From Streptomyces sp. NBC_01298 (GTDB taxonomy: Bacteria; Actinomycetota; Actinomycetes; Streptomycetales; Streptomycetaceae), in contig NZ_CP108414.1 of assembly GCF_035978755.1 (NCBI RefSeq), positions 5,394,001 to 5,458,000 of the forward strand: 64,000 bases of DNA, given 5' to 3'. The notes under the pieces were generated by a model. That model worked only from the letters and a program-made list of their open reading frames with translations, had not been told where the DNA came from and did not search any database. A program made the position numbers and the translations under genes. Every line of letters begins with the position of its first letter. The stretch's first letter is position 1. Shown piece by piece: positions 26,439 through 43,422 of this stretch.

Positions 26439-27161
26439 TCAGCAGGCGAGGCGCGCGGCCCTCAGGGCCCGTGTGCCCCGGGCGGACTCGTACCGGCCCA
26501 GGACGAGCCGGGCGAGCCGCGGGTGGTCGGCCAGCGGCTCCGAGACCGTCCAGGCGGCCGAGGCGTTCAGGGCGCGGGTGAAGCGGCCCGGGGCCAGCAG
26601 GTGCGCGGCCACCGCGATCCGGCGGTAGCCGGCGTCCTGGAACGCGGCCAGGGCTTCGGGCACGGTCGGCCCGGCCGAGGTGAGGTAGGCGGGCAGTACG
26701 GGGACGGGGTCGCCGCTGCCCTCGAACTCCAGCAGGGCGGACAGCTGGGCCGCGCAGGCCTCCGTACCGGTGTTCCCGCCCGGGCGGGAGGAGCCGGCGC
26801 CGGCCACGACCACCGCGTCCGCCCGGGTGTACGGGCCACGGCGCCGCTCGGCCTCACGGAGCCGGCCGTGCAGGGCGCGGGCGACGTCGCGCTCGCCGCT
26901 GAGGCCCTCGGTGAGCACGCAGCCGGTGCCCTCCAGGACGGCGGGGATGTCAACGCGGCGGTGGAAACCGTCGCCGAGCAGCAGCGGGACGACCACGGCG
27001 CGCGGGTGTTCCCGTACGACCTCGGCGAGGGAGGGGCGCTGCACGTCGAGGTGCCCGACCAGCGCGTGCACCCCGCTGATGGCCTCCACGGCGGCGACGA
27101 GCCGGTCAATGGTCGCGGCGGCCTCCGGGGCCGCGCTGCCGTGGACGGCGATGACGAGCAT
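26439..27161 (-). CDS. Sirohydrochlorin chelatase-like protein (CbiX/SirB family)
   Basis: This 240-residue protein has two related halves of the chelatase fold. The first starts MLVIAVHGSAAPEA with the metal-site His, and the second has AVAAHLLAPGRF. VVPLLLGDGFHRRVDIP contains the other typical histidine. The family inserts iron or cobalt into sirohydrochlorin. Because it is divergent from the siroheme-dependent nitrite reductase, iron insertion for siroheme is the natural role. ATG 27161 follows GGGAGG by 8 nt. Confidence 0.82.
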   Translation of the reverse strand: MLVIAVHGSAAPEAAATIDRLVAAVEAISGVHALVGHLDVQRPSLAEVVREHPRAVVVPLLLGDGFHRRVDIPAVLEGTGCVLTEGLSGERDVARALHGRLREAERRRGPYTRADAVVVAGAGSSRPGGNTGTEACAAQLSALLEFEGSGDPVPVLPAYLTSAGPTVPEALAAFQDAGYRRIAVAAHLLAPGRFTRALNASAAWTVSEPLADHPRLARLVLGRYESARGTRALRAARLAC

Positions 27162-27433
27162 GTGGTCTGCCTCCCTGGTCCACCCCGTGGGTCCCCCTTC
27201 CACGCTAGGCCCGCCGCGGCTCCGGGGCAGCCTGGCCAAGGGCCCGCGCGGCAGGCCGGAGGTCCTGTGCGGAAAGGGTCGTTTCCCCGTCCCCAGGGGT
27301 CCTTTTCGGGCGTCCGGGGCCGTGGCCGCGACCTACCGTCGAAGAGTCGGAACGCATGCACGCGTGACGTCTTGGCCCGGCCGCCCTGGCCGCCCCGGGA
27401 CCGCGCGGCACAGGGACACACGGAGTGAGATCC
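27162..27433. promoter_or_regulatory. Divergent control region between chelatase and nitrite reductase
   Basis: These 272 nt must contain promoters for both genes. I see short inverted repeats, for example GGAAA and TTTCC at 27271-27286, but no confident GlnR, Rex or sigma-factor site. No open frame with coding character is present. Confidence 0.4.
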
Positions 27434-30220
27434 ATGGGGCAGACGCTGGTTGTCATCGGCCACGGCATGGTGGGGCACCGCCTGCTGGAGGCGCTCGCCG
27501 AGCGTGACGCGCTCGCCGACCCGACCCGCCCCGAGCGCGGCGGCTGGCAGGTCACCGTCCTCGCGGAGGAGGAGCGCCCCGCCTACGACCGCGTGCACCT
27601 GTCGGCGGCCTTCACCGGCTCCACCGGCGAGGAGCTGTCCCTGGTGGAGCCCGGCTTCCTGGAGAAGTACGGCATCGACCTGCGCCTCGGCGACCCGGCG
27701 GAACTGATCGACACCGCCGCCCGCACGGTCACCGCCCGCTCCGGCGACGTGCTCCGCTACGACGCCCTCGTGCTGGCGACCGGCTCCTACCCCTTCGTGC
27801 CGCCGATCGACGGCGCCGACGCCGAGGGCTGCTTCACCTACCGCACGCTCGACGACGTCGAGGCCCTGACCGCCTACGCCGCGGACCCCGGGGTCCGTAC
27901 CGGTGTCGTCATCGGCGGCGGGCTGCTCGGCCTGGAGGCGGCGGGCGCCCTGCGCACCCTCGGACTGGTGACGCACGTCGTGGAGTTCGCGCCCCGGCTG
28001 ATGCCGCTGCAGGTGGACGACGGCGGCGCTGCCGCCCTGCGGGCCACCATCGAGTCCATGGGCGTCGCCGTCCACACGGGCGTCGGCGCGGCCGGCGTGC
28101 AGATCCACCCCGACGGTCGGGCCCAGGCGCTCCGGCTGACCAGCGGCGAGGAGATCGGCTCCGACGTCGTCGTCTTCTCGGCCGGTGTGCGCCCGCGCGA
28201 CCGCCTCGCCCGCGAGTGCGGCCTGGCGGTGGGCGACCGCGGCGGGGTCGTCGTGGACGGCCACTGCCGCACCAGCGACCCGTACGTCTACGCGATCGGC
28301 GAGTGCGCGCAGACCGTAGACGGCAAGGTGTACGGCCTGGTCGCGCCCGGCTACCAGATGGCCGAGACCGTCGCCGAGGCCCTCGCGGGCGCCGGCGAGC
28401 TGACCTTCACCGGGGCCGACACCTCCACCAAGCTCAAGCTGATGGGCGCCGACGTGGCCTCCTTCGGCGACCCCTTCGCCCCCGAGGGCCGCGACGGCGC
28501 CGTCTCGGTGGTCTTCTCCGACGCCCGCGAGGGCGTCTACAAGAAGCTGCTCCTGGGCCCCGACGGCGCCCTGCTCGGCGGCATCCTGGTCGGCGACGCG
28601 GAGGCCTACGGCTCGCTGAAGCCGCACGCCGGCCGGCAGCTCCCCGCCCCGCCGGAGGCCTTCATCCTGCCGTCGAGCGAGGGCGTGGCGCTGCCCGGCG
28701 CGGACGCGCTGCCCGATGACGCGGTCGTGTGCAGCTGCCACAACATCACCAAGGGGCGGGTGCGCGAGGCGGTCGTCGCGGAGTCCCTCACCGACATCGG
28801 CGGCATCAAGAAGTGCACCAAGGCCGGTACGGGCTGCGGCGGGTGCGTCGGCACCCTCCAGGCGGTCCTGGACGCCGAACTGGCCGCCGCGGGCATCGAG
28901 AAGCCGCGCGGGCTGTGCGAGCACTTCACCCTGACCCGGGCGGAGATCTACGAGAAGATCCGCACCGAGCGCATCCGCGGCTTCAGCGAGCTGCTGGAGT
29001 CCTACGGCGAGGGCGGCGAGGGCTGCGCCGTCTGCAAGCCGGTCGTCGCGAACGTGCTCGGCACCCTCGCCCCCGACCTCGGCATCGGACACATCCTGGC
29101 GGGCGAGCAGGCGGCCCTGCAGGACTCCAACGACCTCTTCCTCGCCAACCTCCAGAAGGACGGCACCTACTCGGTCATCCCGCGCGTCGCCGGCGGCGAG
29201 ATCACGGCCGAGCAGGTCATCGCGCTGGGCGAAGTGGCCCGGGACTACGGCCTCTACACGAAGATCACCGGAGCCCAGCGCATCGGCCTCTTCGGGGTCG
29301 AGAAGGAGCAGCTGCCCGACATCTGGCGGCGCCTGGGCGGCGCCGGATTCGAGTCCGGGCAGGCGTACGGGAAGTCCCTGCGCGCGGTGAAGTCCTGCGT
29401 GGGGGCCCGCTTCTGCCGCTTCGGGCAGGGCGACTCCATCCAGCTCGCCATCGACCTGGAGCTGCGCTACCGGGGTCTGCGCACCCCGCACAAGTTCAAG
29501 GGCGGCGTCTCGGGCTGCCTGCGCGAGTGCGCGGAGGCGCGCGGCAAGGACATCGGCGTCATCGCCACCGCCAACGGCTGGAACCTCTACGTCAGCGGCA
29601 ACGGCGGCGCGACCCCGCGCCACGCCGACCTGCTGGCCTCGGACCTGAACACCGCCGAACTCTTCGCGCTGATCGACCGGTTCCTCATGTACTACATCCG
29701 CACCGGCGAGCGCCTGGAGCGGACGTCCGCCTGGCTGGAGCGGCTCGGTGGCAGCGGCGCGGGCCTGGACCACCTGAAGGCCGTCCTGATCGAGGACTCG
29801 CTCGGCCTGTGCGCGGAGCTCGAGGCGCAGATGGAGCGCCACGTGTCGGCGTACGAGGACGAGTGGTCGGCGGTCCTGGAGGACCCTGCGGCGCTGGAGC
29901 GCTTCGGGACCATGGACTTCGGAGCGGCCGAAGGCGCCGAGGGCGCGGCGCAGGCGCTGGAGCCGGGCCGCGGCCGCACCGCGGTGCTGCCGGACGGCAC
30001 GGAGGCCGCGGTCTTCAAGGACCGTGCGGGCGAGCTCTACGCGGTCGGCAACCGGGACCCCTTCTCGGGCGCCGACGTGATCGCCAACGGCATCATGGGC
30101 TCGCGCGACGGGGTGCCCGTCGTCGCCTCGCCGATGCACAAGCAGGTCTTCGACCTGCGGACGGGCATCTGCCTGGACGACCCGGAGGTGTCCCTGCCGC
30201 TGGTGGAGCTCAAGCCTTAG
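27434..30220 (+). CDS. nirB: NAD(P)H nitrite reductase large subunit fused to a NirD-like domain
   Basis: This cytoplasmic enzyme of about 928 residues reduces nitrite to ammonium. Domains in order are FAD binding (VVIGHGMVGHRLLEAL), NAD binding (VVIGGGLLGLEAAGAL), a [2Fe-2S] BFD-like domain (CSCHN from residue 433, CTKAGTGCGGC), and a siroheme/[4Fe-4S] domain. The siroheme cysteines are at about 655, 661, 695 and 699 (SCVGARFC, GCLREC). After about residue 845 a NirD-like Rieske-fold segment follows (VLPDGTEAAVFKDRAGELYAVGNRDPFSG, VASPMHKQVFDLRTG, CLDDPEVSLP), normally a separate ~110-residue subunit. Its first strands look missing, so the fusion is shortened. ATG 27434 has GGAG 8 nt upstream. 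Confidence 0.92.
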   Translation: MGQTLVVIGHGMVGHRLLEALAERDALADPTRPERGGWQVTVLAEEERPAYDRVHLSAAFTGSTGEELSLVEPGFLEKYGIDLRLGDPAELIDTAARTVTARSGDVLRYDALVLATGSYPFVPPIDGADAEGCFTYRTLDDVEALTAYAADPGVRTGVVIGGGLLGLEAAGALRTLGLVTHVVEFAPRLMPLQVDDGGAAALRATIESMGVAVHTGVGAAGVQIHPDGRAQALRLTSGEEIGSDVVVFSAGVRPRDRLARECGLAVGDRGGVVVDGHCRTSDPYVYAIGECAQTVDGKVYGLVAPGYQMAETVAEALAGAGELTFTGADTSTKLKLMGADVASFGDPFAPEGRDGAVSVVFSDAREGVYKKLLLGPDGALLGGILVGDAEAYGSLKPHAGRQLPAPPEAFILPSSEGVALPGADALPDDAVVCSCHNITKGRVREAVVAESLTDIGGIKKCTKAGTGCGGCVGTLQAVLDAELAAAGIEKPRGLCEHFTLTRAEIYEKIRTERIRGFSELLESYGEGGEGCAVCKPVVANVLGTLAPDLGIGHILAGEQAALQDSNDLFLANLQKDGTYSVIPRVAGGEITAEQVIALGEVARDYGLYTKITGAQRIGLFGVEKEQLPDIWRRLGGAGFESGQAYGKSLRAVKSCVGARFCRFGQGDSIQLAIDLELRYRGLRTPHKFKGGVSGCLRECAEARGKDIGVIATANGWNLYVSGNGGATPRHADLLASDLNTAELFALIDRFLMYYIRTGERLERTSAWLERLGGSGAGLDHLKAVLIEDSLGLCAELEAQMERHVSAYEDEWSAVLEDPAALERFGTMDFGAAEGAEGAAQALEPGRGRTAVLPDGTEAAVFKDRAGELYAVGNRDPFSGADVIANGIMGSRDGVPVVASPMHKQVFDLRTGICLDDPEVSLPLVELKP

Positions 30221-30247
30221 GGCTCTGCGGCGGCCGTACCAACGCAC

Positions 30248-30419: not shown

Positions 30420-31841
30420 ATGAGTTCCGCCAAGCAGGACGTGCGCGCGGCGACCGCCCGGGTGCAGGCGCCGGATCCGGCGCAGTACCGCCCCGGTCGC
30501 ACCATCACCGAGTGGACGCCGGAGGACCCGTCCTTCTGGCAGACCACCGGCAAGAAGGTCGCCACCCGCAACCTGTGGATCGCGGTGCCCGCCCTGCTCG
30601 TGGCCTTCGTGGTCTGGCAGGTCTGGAGCATCACGGCGACCAACCTCAAGGACGTCGGCTTCGGCTTCTCGCAGTCCCAGCTGTTCTGGCTGACGGCGGT
30701 CCCCGGCATCACGGGCGGTACCGCCCGCATCCTGTACACCTTCATCGGCCCGATGATCGGCCAGCGCCGCTTCACCGCGGTCTCCACGGTCATCCTGATC
30801 GTGCCGCTGCTGTGGCTGGGCTTCGCGGTGCAGGACCCCACCACCTCGTACAGCACGCTGGTCGCCATCGCCGCGCTCTGCGGCATCGGCGGCGCCAACT
30901 TCTCCTCCTCCCTGGCCAACATCGGCTTCTTCTACCCGAAGCAGGAGAAGGGCAACGCGACCGGCATCAACGGCGGCCTGGGCAACCTGGGCGTCTCCGT
31001 GGTCCAGCTGCTCACCCCGATCCTGATCACCACCTCGGTGCTGGCGATCGGCTCGGGCCAGAAGAAGGCCGACGGCTCGGAGATCTACCTCCAGAACGCC
31101 GCCTTCGTCTGGGTGCCGGTCCTGATCGTCCTCGCGGCCATCGCCTGGTTCGGCCAGAACGACCTGAAGGTGGCCTCCACCCCCTTCAGCCAGCAGAAGA
31201 TCATCTTCAAGCGCAAGCACAACTGGCTGATGACCTGGCTCTACGTCGGCACCTTCGGCTCCTTCATCGGCTTCGCGGCGGCGCTTCCCCTCCTGATCAA
31301 GACCACCTTCCCGGCGTACTCCGTGGCCACCTACGCCTGGATGGGCCCGGCGCTCGGCGCCCTGGCCCGCTGGGCCGGCGGCTGGATCGCCGACAAGTTC
31401 GGCGGCGCGCGGGTGACGATCCTGTCCTTCGTGGGCATGGGCGCGTCGATCATCGGCGTGATCACCTTCCTTCCGGCGGGCTCCGACCAGGGCTCCTTCT
31501 ACGGCTTCTTCTTCTGCTTCCTGTCGGCGTTCTTCTTCTCGGGCATCGGCAACGGCTCGACCTTCCGCCAGATCCCGGTGATCTTCCGCGGCCAGCACCT
31601 CGCGGGCCTGACCGAGGGCACTCCCGAGTACGCGAAGGCCCTGAAGCAGGCCGAGATCGAGTCGGGCGCGGTGACCGGTTTCACCGCGGCCATCGCCGCC
31701 TACGGCTTCTTCTTCATCCCGGCGATGTTCGCCAACTTCGCCGTGACCAGCGCGATGTGGGGCTTCGTCGCCTTCTACGCCAGCTGCGTGGTCGTGGCCT
31801 GGTGGTTCTACGCCCGCAAGGGCGCGGAGGCCCCCAGCTAG
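30420..31841 (+). CDS. narK: Nitrate/nitrite transporter, NarK family, copy 1
   Basis: This 473-residue major facilitator protein has about 12 helices. It carries both nitrate signature motifs (NGGLGNLGVSVVQL and GIGNGSTFRQIPVIF), the loop arginines expected for anion binding, and a hydrophilic N-terminus of ~50 residues. It would move nitrate in, or exchange it for nitrite. It sits between the nitrite reductase and a dicarboxylate transporter and has a close paralogue at 41989-43422. A stretch of exactly 100 bp (31180-31279) is identical in both. ATG 30420 is preceded by TTCAGGACATGCC with a weak AGGA. Confidence 0.93.
   Translation: MSSAKQDVRAATARVQAPDPAQYRPGRTITEWTPEDPSFWQTTGKKVATRNLWIAVPALLVAFVVWQVWSITATNLKDVGFGFSQSQLFWLTAVPGITGGTARILYTFIGPMIGQRRFTAVSTVILIVPLLWLGFAVQDPTTSYSTLVAIAALCGIGGANFSSSLANIGFFYPKQEKGNATGINGGLGNLGVSVVQLLTPILITTSVLAIGSGQKKADGSEIYLQNAAFVWVPVLIVLAAIAWFGQNDLKVASTPFSQQKIIFKRKHNWLMTWLYVGTFGSFIGFAAALPLLIKTTFPAYSVATYAWMGPALGALARWAGGWIADKFGGARVTILSFVGMGASIIGVITFLPAGSDQGSFYGFFFCFLSAFFFSGIGNGSTFRQIPVIFRGQHLAGLTEGTPEYAKALKQAEIESGAVTGFTAAIAAYGFFFIPAMFANFAVTSAMWGFVAFYASCVVVAWWFYARKGAEAPS
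31180..31279 (+). repeat. 100-bp perfect duplicate shared with second narK (with 42752-42851)
   Basis: From ccccttcagccagcagaag through ttcatcggcttcgcggc the two narK genes are identical without a single silent difference, while flanking sequence diverges. The encoded segment spans the central cytoplasmic loop and start of helix 7. Confidence 0.9.
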
Positions 31842-31861
31842 ACCGTCCCTTCCTGACCCTG

Positions 31862-32030: not shown

Positions 32031-33350
32031 GTGCTCGGCATGTTCCTGCAACTCGGTGTCATGGTGGCGGCCATCGCCCTCGGGTCCCGCAAGGGCGGAG
32101 TGGCCATGGGGCTCTGGGGAGCCGTCGGGGTCTTCGTGCTCGCGACGTTCTTCGGGGTCACCCCCGCCGACACCTCAGGCGTCGTCGACGTCATGCTGAT
32201 CATCCTCGCGGTGATCATGGCGGCCGCCGCGATGGAGGCGGCCGGTGGCATCGACTACCTCGTCGGACTGGCCGAGAAGGCGATCCGCCGCAAGCCCAGC
32301 CGGGTGGTCTACGTGGCTCCCCTCGTCTCCTGGGCCTTCACCCTGGGCGCCGGCACCGCCCACGTCTTCTACCCCTTGCTCCCCGTGATCCACGACGTGG
32401 CCCGCGAAGGCGGCGTCCGGCCCGAGCGGCCCATCGCGGTCGCCTCCATCGCGGCCACCTTCGGTATCACCGCCTCGCCCGTCTCCGCGGCCATGGCCGC
32501 CATGATCGTGATGTTCGACGGGGGCGGCTGGAACCTGCCGCGGATCATGGCCGTCGCCGTGCCGTCCACGCTGCTCGGCGTGCTCGTCGCGGCCACCGCG
32601 CAGTCCCGGATCGGCAAGGAGCTCGGGCAGGACGCCGAGTACCTGCGCCGGCTGGCGGCCGGCGAGATCGAGGCCCCGGCCCCGGCCCCGGCCGAAGCCG
32701 CCCCGCCGCTGCGGCCGCGGGCGCGCTGGTCCGCGTACCTCTTCCTCGGCGGGACCGTCGCCGTCGTCCTCAGCGGACTCTTCCCGGCGCTGCGCCCCGA
32801 GACGGGCAAGGGACCGCTCTCGATGCCCGCCACCATCGAGATCCTGATGATGGCCGTGGCCGCGCTGATCCTGCTCCTGTGCAAGGTCGACGCCAAGCGG
32901 ATACCCGGCACGGACGTGGCCAAGTCCGGGCTCGTCGCCGTCATCGGGGTCTTCGGGCTGTCGTGGCTGGGGCTGTCCTTCATCGGCGCCAACGAGACCC
33001 GGATCACCGGCGCCCTCGGCGGGGTCGCACAGGACCACCCCTGGTTCTTCGCGATCATGCTGCTGCTCCTCTCCGCGCTGCTGTTCAGCCAGGCCACGAC
33101 CACCAAGGCGCTGATGCCCCTCGGGCTCGCCCTCGGTATCCCGGCCCCCCTCCTCATCGCGATGTGGCCCGCCGTGAACGGCTATTTCCTGCTCCCCACC
33201 TACGGCACCTTCATCGCGGCGATCAACTTCGACAGGACCGGCACCACCCGCGTCGGCCGCTTCGTCGTCAACCACTCCTTCATGCTGCCCGGCCTGATCA
33301 CCACGTGCGTCGCGGTATCCACAGGTTTCGCCCTGGTTCAGATTGTCTGA
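32031..33350 (+). CDS. Anaerobic C4-dicarboxylate transporter, DcuA/DcuB family
   Basis: This 439-residue membrane protein has about ten to eleven helices and a soluble Ala/Pro-rich loop near residue 220. Motifs VAPLVSWAFTLGAGTAHVFYPLLPVI, ASIAATFGITASPVSAAMA and NGYFLLPTYGTFIAAINFD match the Dcu family. That family exchanges fumarate, malate or aspartate for succinate during anaerobic growth of enteric bacteria. GTG 32031 has GAAAGG about 8 nt upstream; the next ATG would lose two residues only. It is separated from narK by a terminator-like hairpin, so it may have its own promoter. The family is uncommon in aerobic actinomycetes and fits the neighbouring fermentation genes. Confidence 0.88.
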   Translation: MLGMFLQLGVMVAAIALGSRKGGVAMGLWGAVGVFVLATFFGVTPADTSGVVDVMLIILAVIMAAAAMEAAGGIDYLVGLAEKAIRRKPSRVVYVAPLVSWAFTLGAGTAHVFYPLLPVIHDVAREGGVRPERPIAVASIAATFGITASPVSAAMAAMIVMFDGGGWNLPRIMAVAVPSTLLGVLVAATAQSRIGKELGQDAEYLRRLAAGEIEAPAPAPAEAAPPLRPRARWSAYLFLGGTVAVVLSGLFPALRPETGKGPLSMPATIEILMMAVAALILLLCKVDAKRIPGTDVAKSGLVAVIGVFGLSWLGLSFIGANETRITGALGGVAQDHPWFFAIMLLLLSALLFSQATTTKALMPLGLALGIPAPLLIAMWPAVNGYFLLPTYGTFIAAINFDRTGTTRVGRFVVNHSFMLPGLITTCVAVSTGFALVQIV

Positions 33351-33396: not shown

Positions 33397-33416
33397 CTTG
33401 TGAAAGTTTTCACAAG
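33397..33416. promoter_or_regulatory. Rex operator upstream of pyruvate formate-lyase
   Basis: The sequence CTTGTGAAAG followed by TTTTCACAAG contains TTGTGAA-N4-TTCACAA. This is the operator form bound by the redox repressor Rex, which was first described in Streptomyces coelicolor and releases DNA at high NADH/NAD+. The arms 33397-33405 and 33408-33416 are perfectly complementary. The site lies about 175-195 nt before the pflB start in the 240-nt gap after the dicarboxylate transporter gene, inside the only place a pflB promoter can be. Confidence 0.85.
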
Positions 33417-33508: not shown

Positions 33509-33589
33509 TCAGGACCAACGCGGCGCCAAATGATCGATCAAAAGGCGTGCAATGGAAGCAAGCAATGAGGCGATCGGAAGGTGCGGGCG

Positions 33590-35860
33590 ATGACTGCCAC
33601 CCCTGCGGAAACCACGAAGAACGGCGAGGCCTGGAACGGCTTCAAGGGCGGTCTGTGGCGCGACGCCGTCGACGTCCGCGACTTCATCCAGCAGAACTAC
33701 ACGCCGTACGAGGGTGACGACACCTTCCTCGCCGGCCCCACCGAGCGCACCACCGCCGTGTGGAAGGCGATCACGGACAAGTTCCCGGAGGAGCGCGAGA
33801 AGGGCGTCTACGACGTCTCGTACGACATCCCGTCGTCGATCACCGCGCACGCCCCCGGCTACATCGACCGCGACAAGGACCTGATCGTCGGCCTCCAGAC
33901 GGACGCCCCGCTCAAGCGCGCGATCATGCCCTACGGCGGCTGGCGCATGGTCGCCGGCGCGCTGGAGACCTACGGCTACCCGGTCTCCGACGACCTGGAG
34001 AAGGTCTTCACGGAGTACCGCAAGACCCACAACGCCGGTGTCTTCGACGCGTACACCCCCGACATCCGCGCCGCCCGCAAGGCCGGCATCGTGACCGGTC
34101 TGCCGGACGCGTACGGCCGCGGCCGCATCATCGGCGACTACCGCCGCGTGTCGCTCTACGGTGTCGACCGCCTCATCGCCGTCAAGAAGGAGGAGAAGGA
34201 GGAGATCAACTCCCTCCCCGCGGGCAACCGCTCGCTGGAGGAGACGATCCGCCTGCGCGAGGAGCTCTCCGAGCAGATCCGCGCCCTCGCCGAGCTCAAG
34301 GCGATGGCCGCCTCCTACGGGTATGACATCTCCGGCCCGGCCACCACCGGCCGCGAGGCCATCCAGTGGCTGTACTTCGCGTACCTGGCCGCCGTGAAGG
34401 AGCAGAACGGCGCGGCCATGTCGCTCGGCCGCACCTCCACCTTCATCGACGTCTACCTCCAGCGCGACATCGAGGCCGGCATCCTCACCGAGGAGCAGGC
34501 CCAGGAGCTGGTCGACGACTTCATCATCAAGCTCCGCATCGTCCGCTTCCTGCGCACCCCGGAGTACGACGAGCTCTTCTCCGGCGACCCCACCTGGGTC
34601 ACCGAGTCGATCGCCGGCATGGGCGAGGACGGCCGTCCGCTGGTCACCAAGACCTCGTTCCGCTACCTCCACACCCTCTACAACCTCGGCCCGGCCCCCG
34701 AGCCGAACATGACCGTCTTCTGGTCGCCCCAGCTGCCGCAGGGCTTCAAGGAGTTCTGCGCCCGGGTCTCCATCGACACCTCCTCGGTGCAGTACGAGTC
34801 CGACGAGCTGATGCGCCCGCGCTTCGGCGACGACACCGCCATCGCCTGCTGCGTCTCGGCGATGCCGGTCGGCAAGCAGATGCAGTTCTTCGGCGCCCGC
34901 GTGAACGTCGCCAAGACGCTGCTGTACGCGATCAACGGCGGCCGGGACGAGAAGTCCGGTGCCCAGGTCGGCCCGTCCACCGGCGCCCTCACCTCCGACG
35001 TGCTGGACTACGACGAGGTCATGGCGAAGTTCGACGAGCAGATGGAATGGCTCGCCGACACCTACGTCCACGCCCTGAACGTCATCCACTACATGCACGA
35101 CAAGTACGCCTACGAGCGCATCGAGATGGCGCTCCACGACCGCGACGTGCGCCGCACCATGGCCTGTGGCATCGCCGGCCTCTCGGTCGCCGCCGACTCG
35201 CTGGCCGCCATCAAGTACGCCAAGGTCACCGCCGTGCGCGACGAGACCGGCCTCGCCACCGACTACACCATCGACGGCGACTACCCGGCGTACGGCAACA
35301 ACGACGACCGTGTCGACTCGATCGCCGTCTGGCTGGTCGAGGAGTTCATGAAGAAGATCCGCAAGCACCCCACGTACCGCGAGGCCGAGCACACCCAGTC
35401 GGTGCTGACCATCACCTCGAACGTGGTCTACGGCAAGAAGACCGGCAACACGCCGGACGGACGCCGCGCCGGCGAGCCCTTCTCCCCGGGCGCCAACCCG
35501 ATGAACGGCCGCGACACCCACGGCTACGTCACCTCGGCGCTGTCGGTCGCGAAGCTCCCGTACGAGGACGCCGAGGACGGCATCTCGCTGACCAACACCG
35601 TCACCCCCGACGGCCTGGGCCGCACCCCCGAGGAGCGGATCAAGAACCTGGCCGGCGTCCTCGACGGCTACATGGCGGTCGACGGCTTCCACATGAACGT
35701 GAACGTGCTCAACCGCGACACGCTCATGGACGCCATGGAGCACCCGGAGAACTACCCGCAGCTCACCATCCGCGTCAGCGGATACGCGGTGAACTTCGTC
35801 CGCCTCACGCGCGCTCAGCAGCTCGACGTGCTGAACCGCACCTTCCACGGCTCTCTCTGA
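33590..35860 (+). CDS. pflB: Pyruvate formate-lyase (formate C-acetyltransferase)
   Basis: This 756-residue glycyl radical enzyme cleaves pyruvate with CoA to acetyl-CoA and formate and is inactivated by oxygen. The catalytic cysteine pair is Cys420-Cys421 ([13 protein letters not shown]). The radical glycine is Gly731 in [17 protein letters not shown], close to Gly734 of the E. coli enzyme, and the length is also typical. Substrate-site motifs such as [20 protein letters not shown] and [17 protein letters not shown] are intact, so it looks functional. ATG 33590 has GGAAGG 8 nt upstream. The gene uses very regular C/G-ending codons, a sign of potentially high expression. A Rex operator lies upstream and its activase downstream. 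Confidence 0.97.
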
Positions 35861-35969: not shown

Positions 35970-36797
35970 ATGACCGTCCTCTTCGGTACGAGCCTCCCCG
36001 TCGGCCATGCCAACGCGATCAGCGTGAGCGCCGGCCAGACGCCCGCCGCCGCCGCGACGCAGCGGCCGAGCGAGGGCACGGTGCACTCCTGGGACCTGTC
36101 CACCGGGGTCGACGGCCCCGGGACCCGGTTCGTGACCTTCCTGTCCGGCTGCCCGCTGACCTGCCTGTACTGCCACAACCCCGACACCATGCGGATGCGC
36201 AACGGCAAGCGCACCTCGGCCGACGACGTCATCGCCGAAGCCCGCAAGTACACCAAGTTCATCTCCGCCTCCGGGGGCGGTGCCACCATCTCCGGCGGCG
36301 AACCGCTGCTCCAGCCCGTCTTCGCGGGCGAACTGCTGCACCGGATGAAGAACGACCTCGGACTGCACACCGCGCTGGACACCTCCGGCTTCCTCGGGGC
36401 CCGCGCCACCGACGCGCTGCTGCGCGACGTGGACCTGGTGCTCCTGGACATCAAGTCCTGGGACCGCGAGACGTACAAGAAGGTGACCGGCCGCCCGCTG
36501 GAGCCGACCCTGGACTTCGCCCGCCGCCTCGCCGACCTCGGCAAGGAGGTGCACCTGCGGTTCGTGCTCGTGCCGGGACTGACCGACGCCCGGGAGAACA
36601 TCGAGGGCGTCGCCGCCTTCGCGGGCGCACTCGACAACATCTCGCGGGTCGACGTACTGCCCTTCCACAAGCTAGGCGAGAGCAAGTGGGAGGCGCTCGA
36701 CATGAAGTTCACCCTCCACGACACGCCGTCGCCGACCGCCGCACAGGTCGCCGAGGCGAAGGCGATCTTCGCCGCGCAGGGACTGAACGCGGTCTGA
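35970..36797 (+). CDS. pflA: Pyruvate formate-lyase activating enzyme (radical SAM)
   Basis: This 275-residue enzyme uses S-adenosylmethionine and a [4Fe-4S] cluster to place the glycyl radical on the lyase. The cluster motif CPLTCLYC gives Cys61, Cys65 and Cys68 (C-x3-C-x2-C), followed by ISGGEPLLQP, DTSGFLG, VDLVLLDIKSW and VDVLPFHKLGESKW, all standard for PflA. An N-terminal extension of about 35 residues before TVHSWDLSTGVDGPG has no known role. Lying next to pflB with nothing else between, it should serve that enzyme. Confidence 0.96.
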   Translation: MTVLFGTSLPVGHANAISVSAGQTPAAAATQRPSEGTVHSWDLSTGVDGPGTRFVTFLSGCPLTCLYCHNPDTMRMRNGKRTSADDVIAEARKYTKFISASGGGATISGGEPLLQPVFAGELLHRMKNDLGLHTALDTSGFLGARATDALLRDVDLVLLDIKSWDRETYKKVTGRPLEPTLDFARRLADLGKEVHLRFVLVPGLTDARENIEGVAAFAGALDNISRVDVLPFHKLGESKWEALDMKFTLHDTPSPTAAQVAEAKAIFAAQGLNAV

Positions 36798-36834: not shown

Positions 36835-36901
36835 GCCCGCGCCTCACTCGAACAGCGCACCCATAAGCTCCGCATAACGGGCCGAATCGGTACAGAACAC
36901 C

Positions 36902-36907
36902 TAGCGT
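36902..36907 (+). promoter_or_regulatory. Possible -10 box for a leaderless nitrate reductase operon transcript
   Basis: TAGCGT lies 6 nt before the GTG start at 36914, the usual geometry of leaderless Streptomyces transcripts. No ribosome binding site precedes that GTG. A matching -35 element is not obvious. Confidence 0.35.
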
Positions 36908-36913
36908 GGTGCT

Positions 36914-38008
36914 GTGTCCGAGCCCTCAGATGTCATCGACGCCGCGCCGCCCCCACCGGCGCCCGAGACCCCGCCGCCGGCCGGGCGGTCCGTCACCGCA
37001 CGGGCCACCCTGGCCGGCACCGTCGTCTCGCTCCTGCTCATCCTCGCGATCGTGCTCGGCAGCCGACTGCTGCGGGACTTCGACTCGGCCCTGCTGCCGT
37101 ACGCCGTCGCCACCGTCTTCCTGGCCTTCGGCGTGGCCTACCGGTACACCGTGTGGGTCTCGGCCCCCGGTGCGCGGCGCCTCTTCAAGAAGGGCATCGG
37201 CAGCTTCTGGTCGGTGGAGAACTTCCGCAAGGCGCCCACCGCCCTGCCGAAGATGATCGCCACCTACCTCGGCTTCCAGAAGTTCCTCGGCGCCCGCTCG
37301 CGCCCCCGCTGGATCGCGCACCAGCTGATGTTCTGGGGCTGCCTCCTGGCCGCGGCCATCACCTTCCCGCTGACCTGGGGCTGGTTCACCTTCACCTCGG
37401 AGAGCGGCGCGGGCCCCGGCTACGACATGCGGATCTGGGGCATCAAGGTCCTCGGCTTCGACGCGCTCAGCGTCCTGGGCTGGCTGATGTTCCACGGCCT
37501 GGACATCGCCGCCGTCCTGGTCATCCCCGGCGCCTCGTACTTCCTGTACCGGCGGATGAAGGACCGCGGCGCCATGACCGGCCAGCGCTTCGCCTACGAC
37601 CTGCTGCCGCTGATCTGTCTGATCGTCATCTCCGTGACGGGTCTGCTGCTGACCTTCTCCTCGATCTTCCTGCACGGCGGCGGATACGAGTTCCTCGCGA
37701 TCCTGCACATGGTGTCGGTGGTGTTCACCCTCATCTACATCCCGTTCGGGAAGTTCTTCCACATCGTCCAGCGCCCGGCCGCCGTCGGCATGCAGCTCTT
37801 CAAGTACACGGCCCGCCAGGACGAGCAGGTCTTCCTCTGCAAGCGCTGCGAGGAACCCATCGACACCGCCCCCTACGTGGAGAACCTGCGCGGCACGATG
37901 AAGGACCTGAAGCTCGACTTCGACGCCTGGGCCGAGTACTGCCCGCGCTGCAAGCGGGTCCTGCGCGGCAATGCCTACCTGACCCATGTCAAGAAGGGCT
38001 TCAAGTGA
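36914..38008 (+). CDS. b-type cytochrome-like membrane subunit with C-terminal zinc-ribbon-like cysteines
   Basis: This 364-residue protein has about five or six helices between residues 28 and 290. Candidate heme ligands within or beside helices are His in WIAHQLMFW, MFHGLDI, LAILHMVSV and KFFHIVQ, the number needed for two b hemes as in NarI/HdrE-type quinol oxidases. A soluble C-terminus carries CKRCEE and CPRCKR, a likely metal site. It would pass quinol electrons to the nitrate reductase encoded next, with which its stop overlaps as GTGA. I recognise the layout, not a named family. Confidence 0.75.
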   Translation: MSEPSDVIDAAPPPPAPETPPPAGRSVTARATLAGTVVSLLLILAIVLGSRLLRDFDSALLPYAVATVFLAFGVAYRYTVWVSAPGARRLFKKGIGSFWSVENFRKAPTALPKMIATYLGFQKFLGARSRPRWIAHQLMFWGCLLAAAITFPLTWGWFTFTSESGAGPGYDMRIWGIKVLGFDALSVLGWLMFHGLDIAAVLVIPGASYFLYRRMKDRGAMTGQRFAYDLLPLICLIVISVTGLLLTFSSIFLHGGGYEFLAILHMVSVVFTLIYIPFGKFFHIVQRPAAVGMQLFKYTARQDEQVFLCKRCEEPIDTAPYVENLRGTMKDLKLDFDAWAEYCPRCKRVLRGNAYLTHVKKGFK

Positions 38009-40341
38009 CCGCGACCGACCCGGGCAGGGCCGCGGCCCGGCCCGCACCCGTGCCCGTCTCCATCGACCCCTCCATCGCCCCGCCCGGCACCCGCAACTTC
38101 CGCGACGCCGGAGGCATCCCCGCCGACCAGTGGCACGCCGACCAGAACGGCGAAACCCTGGTCCCCACCCACTGCTGCTTCTGCGGGGTGCAGTGCGGGA
38201 TGTACCTGCGCGTGGACAAGGGCGGCAAGGTCTTCGGCGTGGAACCCCGCAACCACGACATCAACCGGATGCGGCTGTGCCCCAAGGGCATCAACGCCTA
38301 CCAGCAGGTCAACCACCCCGACCGGCTGACCGCCCCGCTGATGCGGCGCTCCCGGGACGAGGAGTTCAAGGAGTGCTCCTGGGACGAGGCCCTGGACTTC
38401 ACCGTCTCCGAGATCCGGCGCATCCAGGAGGCCCACGGCAACGACGCCTTCGGGCTGCTCGGCGGAGCCAGCCTGTTCTCCGAGAAGACCTACCTGGTCG
38501 GCAAGTTCGCCCGGGTCGCGCTGAAGTCCAAGCACGTCGACTACAACGGCCGCCTGTGCATGGTCAGCGCCGCCGGAGCCAACAAGCTCGCCTTCGGCAT
38601 CGACCGGGCCGGCAACCCCTTCTCCGACATCCTCCTCACCGACTGCCTGCTCATCGCCGGGTCGAACGTGGGGGAGTGCTTCCCCGTGATGACCCAGTAC
38701 CTGTGGGGTGCGCGGGACCGCGGCGCCTCGCTGATCGTGATCGACCCGCGCGAGACGGCCATCGCCCGCACCGCCGACATCCACGTCGCGCTCAAGCCCG
38801 GCACCGACTCGGCCTTCTTCAACGCCGTACTGAACGTGGTCATCGCCGAAGGCCTCACCGACGAGGCCTACATCGCCGCGCACACCACCGGCTGGGAAGA
38901 GGTCAAGAAGACCGTCGCCGAGTACCCGCCGTCGCGCTCCGCGGAGATCTGCGGGGTGCCCGCCTCGCAGATCGTCCAGGTGGCACGCGTCTTCGCCGGC
39001 GCGGACAAGGCCATGGCCTGGCACGCCCGCGGCATCGAGCACCACTCCCAGGGCGTCGAGAACTGCCTGTCCGTGATCAACCTGTGCGTGGCCACCGGCC
39101 ACATCGGCAAGCCCGGCGCCGGCTACGGCACCATCACCGGGCAGGGCAACGGACAGGGCGGCCGCGAGCACGGCCAGAAGTCCGACATGCTGCCCGGCGG
39201 CCGCTCCATCACCAACCCGGAGCACCGCAAGCAGATCTGCCAGATCTGGGGCATCGAGGAGTCCGAACTCCCCACCGCCGGCACCTCCATGATGGAGATG
39301 GTCTGGCAGATGCAGCGCAAGGAGATCCGCGGCCTCATCGGCATCTGCAACAACCCCTTCGTCTCCCTCCCCAACTACGCGGTGGTCAAGGACGGCTACG
39401 ACACCGCCGAGTTCCACGCCCAGTTCGACTTCTTCCTCTCCGAGACCGCGGCCAACGCCCACGTGGTCTTCCCCGTCACCACCTGGGCCGAGGACGAGGG
39501 CGTGATGGCCAACGCCGAGGCCCGCGTGGTCAAGCACAACAAGGCCCAGGATCCCCCCGCCGGGGTGCGCACCGACACCTGGGTCATCTGCGAACTCGCC
39601 AGGCGGCTCGGCGCCGGGAAGCACTTCGAGTTCCCCGGCTCCCGCGAGGTGTTCGAGGAGCTGCGCGTCGCCTCCGCCGGCACGGTCAACGACTACTACG
39701 GCATCACCTACGACCGGCTCGACGAGACCGGCGGGATCGCCTGGCCCTGCCCCTCCACCGAGCACCCGGGCACCCCCCGGCTGTTCGAGGACGGCAGGAC
39801 CTACCACCCCGACGGGAAGATCCACATGCAGGTCGTCGAATGGCATGCGCCCATGGACGCCTACACCGAGGAGTACCCCCTCTCCCTCACCACCGGCCGC
39901 ACCGTCGCGCACTTCCTCTCCGGCAACCAGACCCGTCGGCTCGGCGCCCTCGTCGAGCAGACCCCCCGCCCCTGGGTGGAGGTCCACCCCTCGCACGGCT
40001 TCCGCAACGGCGACCCGGTACGGGTGGTCACCCGGCGCGGCAGCGAGGTGTTCCCGGCCCTGGTCACCGAGGCGATCCGCCCCGACACCGTCTTCATCCC
40101 GTACCACTGGCCGGTCCCGACGTCCGCGAACGCCCTGACCATCGACGCCCTCGACCCCCGCTCGAAGATCCCCGAGTACAAGGTCTGCGCCGCCCGGATC
40201 GAGGCCGCCGAGCGGGTCGACGAGGTGCCCGCCCCGCCCACCCCGCCGGGTCGTGAGGCCTATCCGGAGACCCAGGTCTCCCGCACCGACCCCCTGCCGC
40301 CCACAGCCCCCCAGGGCCGTGGCACGGCGGAGAGGAGCTGA
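38005..40341 (+). CDS. Molybdopterin nitrate reductase catalytic subunit (NasA/NarB-like)
   Basis: This 778-residue member of the DMSO reductase superfamily has an N-terminal [4Fe-4S] site (Cys57-x2-Cys60-x3-Cys64 and Cys92). The likely molybdenum ligand is Cys185 in NGRLCMVSAAG. NGRLCM and GQGNGQGGREHGQ ... NPEHRKQ match assimilatory or periplasmic-type nitrate reductases. Formate dehydrogenases instead have Cys/Sec followed by His. There is no Tat signal, so it should be cytoplasmic, which fits the NarK transporter at the operon end. GTG 38005 overlaps the preceding stop. Substrate assignment is inference from motifs plus two flanking NarK genes. Confidence 0.85.
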   Translation: MTATDPGRAAARPAPVPVSIDPSIAPPGTRNFRDAGGIPADQWHADQNGETLVPTHCCFCGVQCGMYLRVDKGGKVFGVEPRNHDINRMRLCPKGINAYQQVNHPDRLTAPLMRRSRDEEFKECSWDEALDFTVSEIRRIQEAHGNDAFGLLGGASLFSEKTYLVGKFARVALKSKHVDYNGRLCMVSAAGANKLAFGIDRAGNPFSDILLTDCLLIAGSNVGECFPVMTQYLWGARDRGASLIVIDPRETAIARTADIHVALKPGTDSAFFNAVLNVVIAEGLTDEAYIAAHTTGWEEVKKTVAEYPPSRSAEICGVPASQIVQVARVFAGADKAMAWHARGIEHHSQGVENCLSVINLCVATGHIGKPGAGYGTITGQGNGQGGREHGQKSDMLPGGRSITNPEHRKQICQIWGIEESELPTAGTSMMEMVWQMQRKEIRGLIGICNNPFVSLPNYAVVKDGYDTAEFHAQFDFFLSETAANAHVVFPVTTWAEDEGVMANAEARVVKHNKAQDPPAGVRTDTWVICELARRLGAGKHFEFPGSREVFEELRVASAGTVNDYYGITYDRLDETGGIAWPCPSTEHPGTPRLFEDGRTYHPDGKIHMQVVEWHAPMDAYTEEYPLSLTTGRTVAHFLSGNQTRRLGALVEQTPRPWVEVHPSHGFRNGDPVRVVTRRGSEVFPALVTEAIRPDTVFIPYHWPVPTSANALTIDALDPRSKIPEYKVCAARIEAAERVDEVPAPPTPPGREAYPETQVSRTDPLPPTAPQGRGTAERS

Positions 40342-40347
40342 CCCGCC

Positions 40348-40947
40348 ATGATGGGCCGCACGATCTTCATCGACCCGGGTCGCTGCATCGGCTGCCAGGC
40401 GTGCGTCTCGGCCTGCCGCGAGTGCGATTCGCACCGTGGGAAGTCGATGATCCACCTCGACTACACCGAACCCGGCATGTCCGTCGCCTCCCTCCCCAGC
40501 GTCTGCATGCACTGCGAGGACCCGGTCGCACCCTGCGCCGAGGTCTGTCCCGCCGACGCGATCCTGGTGACCGCCGACGGGGTGGTCCAGCAGGCCGACA
40601 CCACCCGCTGCATCGGCTGCTCCAACTGCGTCAACGCCTGCCCCTTCGGCATCCCGAAGATCGACCTCCAGGCGAAGCTGCAGATGAAGTGCAACCTCTG
40701 CTACGACCGCACCGCCTACGGCCTCGCCCCGATGTGCGCGACCGTCTGCCCGACCGGGGCCCTCTTCTACGGAACCCTCGAAGAGCTCCAGGCGGAGCGC
40801 CCCGGGGTCCAGGTGGCCGACTCCTTCGTCTTCGGCGACGTCGTCGTCCAGACCGGGGTCGCCATGGTCGTCCCCGCCGACAAGGTCCAGTGGCCCGTCC
40901 CCGGCGGCCTCCCCGTCGTCGAGATCAACGGAAAGGACGTCCGGTGA
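40348..40947 (+). CDS. Four-cluster ferredoxin subunit (DmsB/NrfC-like)
   Basis: This 199-residue electron carrier has four cysteine groups for [4Fe-4S] clusters: CIGCQACVSAC, CMHCEDPVAPCAEVCP, CIGCSNCVNACP, and CNLCYDRTAYG followed by MCATVCP. This arrangement is that of the small subunit that wires DMSO-reductase-type enzymes to their membrane partner. It follows the catalytic gene by 6 nt with AGGAG, and its stop overlaps the Rieske start. Confidence 0.92.
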   Translation: MMGRTIFIDPGRCIGCQACVSACRECDSHRGKSMIHLDYTEPGMSVASLPSVCMHCEDPVAPCAEVCPADAILVTADGVVQQADTTRCIGCSNCVNACPFGIPKIDLQAKLQMKCNLCYDRTAYGLAPMCATVCPTGALFYGTLEELQAERPGVQVADSFVFGDVVVQTGVAMVVPADKVQWPVPGGLPVVEINGKDVR

Positions 40948-41627
40948 GCGTCACCGAGCAGCCCCCTCCACACCCAGGGCACCGGGGCGACGGCCCCGCG
41001 GACGGCGGCGCGGCCGCCGACGCCGCGATCGAGCAACTGCGCGACCGGATCAGCGCCGACTCCCTCACCACCCGCCGTGACTACCTGCGGATCGTCGCCA
41101 CCGTCTCCGGCGGCCTGGCCATCGGCGGTGTCGGCGTCGCCGCGGGCATCCTGCACCGGCACGGGGACAACGAGGGCCTGCCCGACCCGAAGAAGGTCGC
41201 CGACCTGCTGCCCCCCGGCCAGTCCGTGGCCTTCCGGTTCCCCGGCGAGGACGACCGGGCCCTGGCCGTGCGCCTCGGGGACGGCTCCCTCGTGGGCTAC
41301 TCCGCCGTCTGCACCCACCTGGCGTGCGGTGTGCTGTGGCGCGAGGACCGGGGCCCCGACGGGGAGCTGTACTGCCCCTGCCACGAGGGTGTCTTCGACG
41401 CCCGTACCGGCGAGGTGACGGCCGGTCCTCCGCCGCGCCCGCTGCCGCGGATCTACCTGACCGAGCAGGCCGACGGCAGCGTCTGGGCCGTGGCGACCGC
41501 CCGGTCGGGAGAGCAGGTGAAGGACGCGCTCTGCCGGCAGTTCGGCGACTCCCACCCGCAGGAGTCCGCCCGCCTGGGCTGCCCCGGCGCGGCCCGGGCC
41601 GGTACCACCGAGAGGAGGCCCACATGA
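40944..41627 (+). CDS. Rieske [2Fe-2S] protein with Tat-type N-terminal anchor
   Basis: This protein of about 227 residues binds a Rieske cluster through CTHLACG and CPCHEGVF (two Cys, two His). Near residue 44 the sequence TTRRDYLRIVATVSGG and a hydrophobic stretch match a twin-arginine signal that may stay as a membrane anchor, placing the cluster outside. It resembles Rieske subunits of quinol:acceptor complexes. It sits in an operon whose catalytic subunit appears cytoplasmic. GTG 40944 overlaps the previous stop as GTGA, and its own stop overlaps the next ATG. Confidence 0.9.
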   Translation: MSVTEQPPPHPGHRGDGPADGGAAADAAIEQLRDRISADSLTTRRDYLRIVATVSGGLAIGGVGVAAGILHRHGDNEGLPDPKKVADLLPPGQSVAFRFPGEDDRALAVRLGDGSLVGYSAVCTHLACGVLWREDRGPDGELYCPCHEGVFDARTGEVTAGPPPRPLPRIYLTEQADGSVWAVATARSGEQVKDALCRQFGDSHPQESARLGCPGAARAGTTERRPT

Positions 41628-41992
41628 GCGAGGCACCGCTGCCACCCCGCCCGGAGTACCACCCGGGCAGTGCCCAGCCACGGCTCAACCGGCCGGTGCG
41701 CGAGAGGTACCCGCAGATCCGCTCCACCAGCGGGTACGGGGACCCCCGGATCCGGCACACGGGCCCGGGCCCGGGAGCCGGCACCGAGCAGGAGCCCGAG
41801 CGCTCCTCCCGCCTCAACGCGCGCCTCGCCCTGGCGCTCACGGTCGTGATCGGCCAGCTCTGGGCGCTCACCGTGACCGTCAACGAGTGGATGAAGGGAA
41901 ACACCGGCACGGCCTGGTGGGGAGCGGGGTTCCTGATCCTGTCCTTCCTCGTCGTGATCGGACTGTGGCTCCTCGACCCGAAGGACCGATGA
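41624..41992 (+). CDS. Small membrane protein of the nitrate reductase operon
   Basis: This 122-residue protein has a polar, Pro/Arg-rich first half and two hydrophobic segments, about 67-88 (LNARLALALTVVIGQLWALTV) and 97-117 (WWGAGFLILSFLVVIGLWLL). I do not recognise the family. Its start (after GAGAGGAGG) and its stop both overlap neighbours as ATGA, so it is translated with the Rieske and NarK proteins. It may help assemble the membrane part of the complex. Confidence 0.75.
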   Translation: MSEAPLPPRPEYHPGSAQPRLNRPVRERYPQIRSTSGYGDPRIRHTGPGPGAGTEQEPERSSRLNARLALALTVVIGQLWALTVTVNEWMKGNTGTAWWGAGFLILSFLVVIGLWLLDPKDR

Positions 41993-43422
41993 CCATGTCG
42001 ATGCCCACGCCGACCTCGTCGGCACCCCGCAGTCACCGTGCGGAGAGCTACAAGCCCGGGGCCACCATCGCCGACTGGCGGCCCGAGGACGAGGGCTTCT
42101 GGAATTCCAAGGGCCACCGGGTCGCCCAGCGCAACCTCTGGGTCTCGATCCCCGCGCTGATGCTCGGCTTCGTGGTCTGGCAGGTCTGGTCGGTGACCGT
42201 GGTCCGGCTCAACGACGTCGGCTTCGGTTTCTCGAAGTCCCAGCTGTTCTGGCTGACCGCCATCCCCGGGATCACCGGCGGCACCTTCCGGATCCTCTAC
42301 ACCTTCATCGGGCCGATGTTCGGCGAGCGGAAGTTCACCGCCTTCAGCACGATCATCCTGGTCGGTCCGATGCTGTGGCTGGGCTTCGCGCTCCAGGACA
42401 CCGGGACGCCGTACTGGGAGCTGGCGCTGATCGCGGCCGTCTGCGGCATCGGCGGCGCGAACTTCGCCTCCTCGATGGCGAACATCGGCTTCTTCTTCCC
42501 CAAGCGGGAGAAGGGCAGCGCCAACGGCCTCAACGGCGGCCTCGGCAACCTCGGCGTGAGCGTGGTCCAACTGGTCGCCCCGCTGGTGGTCACCGCGGCG
42601 GTCCTCGGCGCCCCGGCGGGCGGACCCCAGCACGACGCGAAGAAGAACACCGACATCTGGCTGCAGAACGGCGCCTTCCTCTGGGTGCCGCTGCTGGTCA
42701 TCATGGCGCTGGCCGCCTGGTTCCTGATGAACGACCTGAAGGTGGCCGCGGCCCCCTTCAGCCAGCAGAAGATCATCTTCAAGCGCAAGCACAACTGGCT
42801 GATGACCTGGCTCTACGTCGGCACCTTCGGCTCCTTCATCGGCTTCGCGGCCGCCCTGCCGCTGCTGATCAAGAACAACTTCGAGGGGCAGGGCTACCAG
42901 GCCACCACCTACGCCTGGATCGGCCCGTTCATCGGGGCCCTCACGCGCTGGGGCGGCGGCTGGCTCTCGGACAAGATCGGCGGAGCCAGGGTCACCATCC
43001 TGTCCTTCATCGGCATGGCCGCGGCCCTCGTCGTGGTGATCTTCGCGCTGCCGTCCGGCGGCCAGGAGGGCAACTTCTGGCCCTTCTACATCGGCTTCCT
43101 GGTGGCCTTCGCCTTCTCCGGCCTGGGCAACGGCTCGACCTTCCGGCAGATCCCGGTGATCTTCCGGGACCACCACATGAAGGCGGCCGAGGGCAAGGGC
43201 CCCGAGGCGCAGGCCGCGGCGCTCAAGCAGTCGGAGATGGAGTCGGGCGCCGTCACCGGCTTCTCCTCGGCCATCGCGGCCTACGGCTTCTTCTTCATCC
43301 CGGCGATGTTCGCGGCCATGGCCGTCACCAACGCGCTGTGGATCTTCATCGGCTTCTATGCCACGTGCCTGGTGGTCTGTTACTGGTTCTACGCCCGCAA
43401 GGGCGCCGAGGCTCCCAGCTGA
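41989..43422 (+). CDS. narK: Nitrate/nitrite transporter, NarK family, copy 2
   Basis: This 477-residue major facilitator transporter is closely related to the one at 30420-31841. It has the same signature motifs (NGGLGNLGVSVVQL, GLGNGSTFRQIPVIF) and the same C-terminus (WFYARKGAEAPS). As last gene of the overlapping operon it should feed nitrate to the cytoplasmic reductase and remove nitrite. The ATG at 41989 overlaps the previous stop. A 100-bp block is identical at DNA level to copy 1, suggesting recent recombination between copies. Differences cluster in the N-terminus and in the loop after helix 6. Confidence 0.94.
   Translation: MTMSMPTPTSSAPRSHRAESYKPGATIADWRPEDEGFWNSKGHRVAQRNLWVSIPALMLGFVVWQVWSVTVVRLNDVGFGFSKSQLFWLTAIPGITGGTFRILYTFIGPMFGERKFTAFSTIILVGPMLWLGFALQDTGTPYWELALIAAVCGIGGANFASSMANIGFFFPKREKGSANGLNGGLGNLGVSVVQLVAPLVVTAAVLGAPAGGPQHDAKKNTDIWLQNGAFLWVPLLVIMALAAWFLMNDLKVAAAPFSQQKIIFKRKHNWLMTWLYVGTFGSFIGFAAALPLLIKNNFEGQGYQATTYAWIGPFIGALTRWGGGWLSDKIGGARVTILSFIGMAAALVVVIFALPSGGQEGNFWPFYIGFLVAFAFSGLGNGSTFRQIPVIFRDHHMKAAEGKGPEAQAAALKQSEMESGAVTGFSSAIAAYGFFFIPAMFAAMAVTNALWIFIGFYATCLVVCYWFYARKGAEAPS
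42752..42851 (+). repeat. 100-bp perfect duplicate shared with first narK (with 31180-31279)
   Basis: This is the second copy of the identical block. Third codon positions are identical throughout, while immediately outside the block the genes differ at many silent sites. Confidence 0.9.

Follow-up and report, generated by a model that had tools for sequence, protein, structure and literature searches.

A Rex operator upstream of pflBA and a neighbouring five-gene molybdenum operon, predicted to encode a membrane-bound nitrate reductase, in Streptomyces sp. NBC_01298

The genus Streptomyces is commonly regarded as obligately aerobic, able to survive but no more when oxygen is absent. We analysed a window of 64,000 nucleotides from Streptomyces sp. 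NBC_01298 (NCBI RefSeq assembly GCF_035978755.1, contig NZ_CP108414.1, positions 5,394,001 to 5,458,000), in which genes for nitrate and pyruvate metabolism lie close together. A first, sequence-only reading had described this block as one physiological module for life without oxygen. Our results point to two neighbouring units, which we hold to be the probable arrangement: the pflBA genes of a predicted Rex-controlled fermentation through pyruvate formate-lyase (PFL) and AdhE, and a five-gene operon for a putative membrane-bound nitrate reductase containing molybdenum (Mo). All the genes named in the sequence-only reading, a chelatase, nirB, two narK genes, a Dcu transporter, pflB, pflA and a Mo enzyme, are present where it placed them and have strong family matches (Table 1).

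PFL enzymes are recognized by the glycyl-radical motif RV[AS]GY and an active Cys-Cys pair. In the PflB of the window these lie at residues 731 (RVSGY) and 423 (Cys-Cys), and its best PDB match is E. coli PFL (1h16). The oxygen-poor role proposed for pflBA is supported by a perfect match to the Rex operator, TTGTGAAN4TTCACAA, starting 192 bp before the likely ATG of pflB at position 33590, where 0.11 matches were expected at up to three mismatches. There are three perfect Rex sites in the 9.7 Mb source genome; the reversed pattern, used as a control, gave no match in this genome at up to one mismatch.

Relatives were compared in two sets, which overlap partly and whose counts are kept separate; counts over Streptomyces are counts over related genomes. 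The first set contains 100 genomes, including the source genome (G000), and was searched with profiles for PFL (TIGR01255 above 994.2 bits), AdhE (E 1e-150) and Dcu. The second consists of named loci, the best 80 of 501 loci with the Mo operon, all titled Streptomyces except one [Kitasatospora] papulosa. Left-flank counts use the 67 of these that extend 8.5 kb or more to the left, right-flank counts use 70, and the Rex comparison uses 68 (33 with pflB and 35 without), the other 12 being omitted for their short left flanks. In 16 of the 33 loci with pflB the gene is preceded at 192-252 bp by a perfect operator, in eight spacer versions; the 35 loci without pflB have none, and no further perfect Rex site was found in the 68 loci. 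Among the 27 other PFL genomes of the first set, a perfect site lies upstream of pflB in four and a one-mismatch site in one. At locus L042 a one-mismatch site 2.7 kb upstream of pflB lies upstream of adhE, and no Rex site was found in two genomes with PFL fragments.

The link of pflBA to AdhE had been missed by the sequence-only reading. The 18-mer operator of pflB recurs 1.6 Mb away (L240:4793-4810), upstream of adhE (L240:4871-7639; C1:7056792), whose product matches NF010378 with 1369.9 bits (cut-off 951). AdhE was found in 20 of the 100 genomes, one match (G057) being partial, and 17 of these also have PFL; PFL occurs alone in 11, AdhE alone in 3, and neither in 69 (Fisher p 2.5e-9, kinship ignored). 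A Rex operator stands close upstream of adhE in 7 of the 20 genomes (five perfect, two with one mismatch), and adhE lies within 1 kb of pfl in G002, G026 and G090. One rex-type gene was found in the source genome, with a one-mismatch operator alongside. This site has the letters of the S. avermitilis rex operator, which has been footprinted, and another one-mismatch site has those of the S. avermitilis cydA1 operator (both from an excerpt of PMC5355995). In S. aureus both pflB and adhE are under Rex control (PMC2883068, excerpt). From the operators at pflB and adhE, the co-occurrence of PFL and AdhE, and the S. aureus precedent, a Rex-switched PFL-AdhE pathway is the simplest prediction. The comparison with the S. 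aureus regulon, as far as the excerpt describes it, extends to the same operator, the same two targets and Rex as a sensor of the NADH/NAD+ ratio; the Streptomyces case differs in that an OsdR/DevR-like box lies near pflB in most relatives and in that Rex binding is predicted. We found no description of Rex control of a Streptomyces pfl or adhE in the literature searched, which left out subscription papers and preprints.

FNR-type sites gave four matches in the window at up to two mismatches against 1.95 expected and were dropped, and a palindrome search of the window returned mostly coding-region palindromes. The third perfect Rex site of the source genome (L239:4822-4839; C1:1241821) lies at the frame start of a DoxX-like gene.

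The OsdR/DevR-like box between the Rex operator and pflB is weak in the source genome, where its matrix score lies below the 13.3-17.8 of published sites (Table 1). The window site did not stand out under a matrix built on 25 published OsdR sites, and the position-conserved pattern GGGACYWWNGGYCC was used instead, with up to one mismatch; this pattern was picked after inspection of the pflB regions, and the counts are to be read as a contrast, not as an independent test. It occurs in 28 of 35 pflB upstream regions of named loci, compared with none of those of MscL (0/68), PNP (0/61), the MFS gene (0/49) or the Mo subunit (0/79), and one of 79 for the cytochrome b of the operon. It is also present upstream of LtrA (6/37), narK1 (7/36) and nirB (4/8); shuffles gave 0.6-3.1%. 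A genome-wide count of a related pattern gave no enrichment. One response regulator of the source genome is DevR-like, matching M. tuberculosis DevR (3c3w) at E 5.5e-75 with the next match at 2.5e-41, and sits in a universal stress protein cluster with at least two OsdR-like boxes upstream of genes there. At L273:15841-19659 a phosphoketolase gene with an OsdR-type box adjoins one for a DevR-like regulator, possibly a further low-oxygen carbon route.

In S. lividans the putative PFL SCO0206 rises with OsdR (PMC6302529, excerpt), so a tie between hypoxia and the expression of a Streptomyces PFL is not in itself new. According to excerpts of PMC5069765 and PMC6302529, SCO0206, a NarK and Nar2 belong to the OsdR/DevR regulon of S. 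coelicolor and S. lividans or rise with OsdR, and the site AGGGACCTTCGGCCCC listed there at narG2 resembles the pflB boxes of our relatives. The same excerpts list the S. lividans PFL in a table next to osdR, with a pflA fragment termed a putative pseudogene; in contrast, the pflBA of the window stands at another locus, behind a Rex operator and beside the Mo operon.

This operon is likely to encode a membrane-bound nitrate-reducing complex, judging from its predicted products, and appears to be undescribed; no description of it was found in the literature searched, with the scope given above. The sequence-only reading had rightly recorded a molybdenum reductase operon but had an incomplete set of its genes, five in all, missing the NarI-like and Rieske subunits. 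The open frame of the Mo subunit runs from 37153, which is not the start of the gene; the real start lies near 38005, since the earlier codons overlap the membrane protein at 36914-38008, which is read in another frame, and every domain match falls after that point. Neighbouring genes within 36914-43422 overlap by a few bases or lie at most 6 bases apart, as in an operon. The conserved upstream element AACGG...CCTAnsGT ends 6 bases before the first codon, which suggests a nearly leaderless transcript; when the upstream regions of loci lacking pflA are aligned, up to 24 of them show a similar spaced element.

The nitrate role proposed for the operon agrees with the active-site residues, which match those of nitrate reductases. 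At the Mo-binding site Cys-Met replaces Cys/Sec-His and TGQ replaces RGQ, as in NapA (2jim); all operon-type proteins have Cys-Met except that of L069 (Cys-Thr), and the residue before GQ is Thr, with Ala in L069. The catalytic residues are kept across distant lineages. Cys-Met, the TGQ motif and the lack of NarG features ally the subunit with NasC, NasA and NapA, from which it differs in scoring under the NasC cut-off, in its membrane and Rieske partners, and in that no hydrophobic export signal was seen in 38005-40341. The best NCBIfam profile is NasC (NF047855, 772.7 bits, cut-off 1100), and NapA (TIGR01706) reaches 237.4 bits (cut-off 930.55). NarG (TIGR01580) has no match over its cut-off at the locus and NarI (TIGR00351) none to the locus cytochrome; narG and narI are present elsewhere in the source genome (C1:3325959 and C1:3331865, the latter its sole NarI match). 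For the cytochrome itself, no Pfam match at E 0.05 and no PDB sequence match at E 1 were found; its NarI-like heme-ligand pattern and fold are predictions, and in a Foldseek search the first NarI chain came at rank 25, behind mostly receptors, with no match at E 0.001 or better. Among 120 listed relatives it is mostly called 'MFS transporter' by NCBI where it is named at all, likely a widespread misannotation of a cytochrome. For the Rieske subunit, a twin-arginine (Tat) pair together with a hydrophobic stretch is present in all 16 distant proteins, and the pair in all 14 Streptomyces proteins checked. In its predicted layout the complex resembles NarGHI, with a cytoplasmic Mo subunit, an iron-sulfur subunit and a NarI-like cytochrome b, but unlike NarGHI it has a catalytic subunit of NasA/NapA type, no NarJ-like gene between its five genes, and an extra Tat-type Rieske protein and DUF6755-like protein.

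The kinship with assimilatory enzymes raises the possibility that the operon serves nitrogen assimilation, with a NasA-type reductase fed by quinol instead of NADH, NirBD making ammonium, and pflBA as an unrelated neighbour. The NasC match, the adjoining nirB and CbiX genes, and the motifs DYNGR(L/F)CM.SAA and TGQGNGQGGREHG, common to the Mo subunit and another NasA-like protein of the source genome, are what this explanation would lead one to expect. Yet that genome has a separate NasA-like gene (C1:6220086), NirB is present at only 12 of the 67 loci, and an assimilatory Nas enzyme would hardly be expected to have membrane and Rieske subunits. We regard this explanation as rather unlikely.

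We think it unlikely that the operon encodes a formate dehydrogenase that oxidises the formate made by PFL and passes the electrons to the quinone pool. Such an enzyme would suit the position next to pflA, the best three PDB matches of the Mo subunit by score are formate dehydrogenases or an FdhF subunit, and FDH-N beta is the nearest match of the iron-sulfur subunit. The formate dehydrogenase alpha profile (TIGR01591) also matches, with 571 bits, but stays under the cut-off of 666.25, and the active site speaks against it, with Met instead of His after the Mo-binding Cys, as in NapA (L069 excepted), and Thr (Ala in L069) instead of Arg before GQ. Moreover, no pfl gene stands beside the operon in 27 of the 67 Streptomyces loci.

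Gene order across Streptomyces, which the sequence-only reading had proposed to compare, shows the block to be a mosaic at a conserved LtrA/MscL site and no single fixed module. To the left of the Mo operon, pflBA is present at 32 of the 67 loci, both pfl genes are partial at one, pflA is whole or partial without pflB at seven, and neither is found at 27; the other left-flank genes are NarK (34), LtrA (35), NirB-like (12, some cut by the locus end) and CbiX-like (8). On the right, MscL is found at 60 of the 70 loci, PNP at 62 and the MFS gene at 64. From these flank-gene counts the Mo operon is the steadier part of the site, and pfl, narK, nirB, dcu and the CbiX gene are the variable parts. 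In the 28 PFL-positive genomes of the 100 (source included), pfl lies next to the Mo operon in six, at the same site without the operon in one (L037) and elsewhere in 21; three stretches of the latter (L039, L044, L059) are short, and a close orthologue of the Mo subunit was not found in these three genomes. Such orthologues, with at least 86% identity, are present in 15 of 61 same-genus genomes, source included. At eight of the 67 loci pflA is whole or partial beside the Mo operon with pflB gone or broken (L125, L129, L130, L164, L182, L199 and L200, also L136), and these pflA remnants are a trace of PFL loss.

These counts bear on the view of the 17 kb as a single survival module, co-regulated and including dicarboxylate exchange. 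The whole gene set does stand together in the source window and nearly so in L031 and L124, and pflBA directly precedes the Mo operon at almost half of the Streptomyces loci (32/67). Against this, pfl and the Mo operon are separable and differ in their upstream elements, the Mo operon having its own and an OsdR-like box in only the one cytochrome b upstream region mentioned above. Dicarboxylate exchange is no general part of the block: of the five loci seen with Dcu at the site, L031, L126 and L195 have a truncated gene and the source window and L124 a full-length one, and a full-length gene is present at one of the 67 named loci. The supposed rarity of PFL and Dcu in such actinomycetes holds for Dcu, with PF03605 in 2 of the 100 genomes (source included), but not for PFL, with 28. 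Further full-length relatives of Dcu do exist, 14 named Streptomyces proteins among the matches listed being 72-95% identical, seen apart from their genomic context. On balance we consider a single module improbable. That the island is a decaying relic, with gene loss well advanced and little in use, is very improbable, for all the Dcu remnants at three loci and the eight loci with pflA but no intact pflB: every gene of the block is an open frame with strong family matches, the letters of the Rex operator are kept while spacers drift, and catalytic residues persist over distant lineages.

Within the genus the five genes are complete in 74 of 75 Streptomyces loci. A wider scan of 396 genomes of the phylum gave 30 matches to the cytochrome, 23 of them strong (three from the same genus and 20 from outside the class). 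In all 20 outside-class loci the Mo subunit follows the cytochrome, and in 19 the 4Fe-4S and Rieske genes are also present; L108 ends within the Mo subunit, and in L115 the Mo gene and the 4Fe-4S gene are each split in two. A DUF6755-like gene comes directly next in 10 of the 20 and a NarK-like gene is nearby in six. Horizontal transfer or repeated loss of the operon is likely, because same-class genomes outside the genus, which are partly listed in the sample, are absent from the 30 matches.

The predicted activities, subunit assembly, topology, electron path and regulation of the two neighbouring units would combine as follows. A fall in oxygen would raise NADH and release Rex from its operators at pflB and adhE, and pflB may be further activated by a DevR/OsdR-type regulator. 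PFL would then split pyruvate into acetyl-CoA and formate, and AdhE would convert acetyl-CoA to ethanol, regenerating NAD+. Alongside this, nitrate would enter through NarK. Electrons drawn from menaquinol by the cytochrome b would travel via the iron-sulfur subunit to the Mo site in the cytoplasm, and the nitrite formed would either leave the cell or be turned into ammonium by NirBD. In haloarchaea, Nar has an associated Rieske protein and cytochrome b. In S. coelicolor, Nar1 nitrate reduction is coupled by a Q-cycle with bcc-aa3 (PMC7931247, excerpt). As in both systems, a Rieske protein appears here to be tied to nitrate reduction, but here its gene lies inside the reductase operon and the cytochrome is NarI-like, not QcrB-like. 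A tentative and rather doubtful extension would make the complex a new class of respiratory nitrate reductase. In it, the two electrons of menaquinol would be divided between an outer-face Rieske protein and the NarI-like cytochrome, and nitrate reduction, with a formerly assimilatory subunit as catalyst, would thereby exceed that by NarGHI in proton pumping; hypoxic Streptomyces would couple it to the Rex-switched PFL-AdhE pathway.

Table 1. Features of the nitrate and pyruvate block (positions in the window)
Feature	Position	Strand	Evidence
CbiX-type chelatase	26439..27239	-	Pfam CbiX 76.1 bits (cut-off 22)
nirB, NADH nitrite reductase	27425..30220	+	TIGR02374 960 bits (cut-off 578)
narK1, nitrate/nitrite transporter	30420..31841	+	TIGR00886 313.6 bits (cut-off 311.7)
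DcuA/DcuB-type C4-dicarboxylate transporter, full length	32031..33350	+	TIGR00770 454.1 bits (cut-off 331.35); PF03605 413.1 bits (cut-off 27)
Perfect Rex operator upstream of pflB	33398..33415	.	Sole window match at up to 3 mismatches
OsdR/DevR-like box, weak in source genome	33489..33504	.	1 mismatch to GGGACYWWNGGYCC; matrix score 11.0
pflB, pyruvate formate-lyase	33581..35860	+	TIGR01255 1195.5 bits (cut-off 994.2)
pflA, radical-SAM activase of PflB	35970..36797	+	TIGR02493 287.5 bits (cut-off 231.75); CxxxCxxC at residue 61
Promoter-like element ATAACGGG ... CCTAGCGT	36874..36907	+	Just upstream of Mo operon
NarI-like membrane cytochrome b (predicted), C-terminal CxxC...CxxC part	36914..38008	+	
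Mo catalytic subunit, NasA/NapA type	38005..40341	+	Profile matches and active-site residues
4Fe-4S electron-transfer subunit, 17 Cys	40348..40947	+	Pfam Fer4_11 70.2 bits; best PDB match FDH-N beta 1kqf_B
Rieske 2Fe-2S subunit with twin-arginine signal-anchor	40944..41627	+	CTHLAC...CPCH and TRRDYLRIV
Small DUF6755-like membrane protein, two hydrophobic stretches	41624..41992	+	PF20540 23.8 bits (below cut-off 27)
narK2, nitrate/nitrite transporter	41989..43422	+	TIGR00886 324 bits, scored on longer frame from 41887 (cut-off 311.7)

On the plus strand the genes follow one another in the order nirBD, narK1, dcu, pflB, pflA, the five genes of the Mo operon (cytochrome b, Mo subunit, 4Fe-4S, Rieske and DUF6755-like) and narK2, with the CbiX chelatase divergent on the left; this chelatase likely serves the siroheme of NirB. 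The C-terminus of NirB holds a fused NirD-like Rieske_2 domain (residues 842-926). The start of narK2 is likely near 41989 and not 41887, and the two NarK proteins are 65% identical. A large penicillin amidase-family gene (50670-53522, 810.8 bits) lies near the block and is unrelated to it.

If it holds true, a Rex-switched PFL-AdhE pathway would give part of the genus a concrete and testable fermentation route. Many Streptomyces and also distant Actinomycetota share the conserved Mo operon, yet annotation often lists its cytochrome as an MFS transporter; should the complex reduce nitrate, it would add to soil nitrogen cycling an enzyme that surveys based on NarG, NapA or NasA models would miss or misread.

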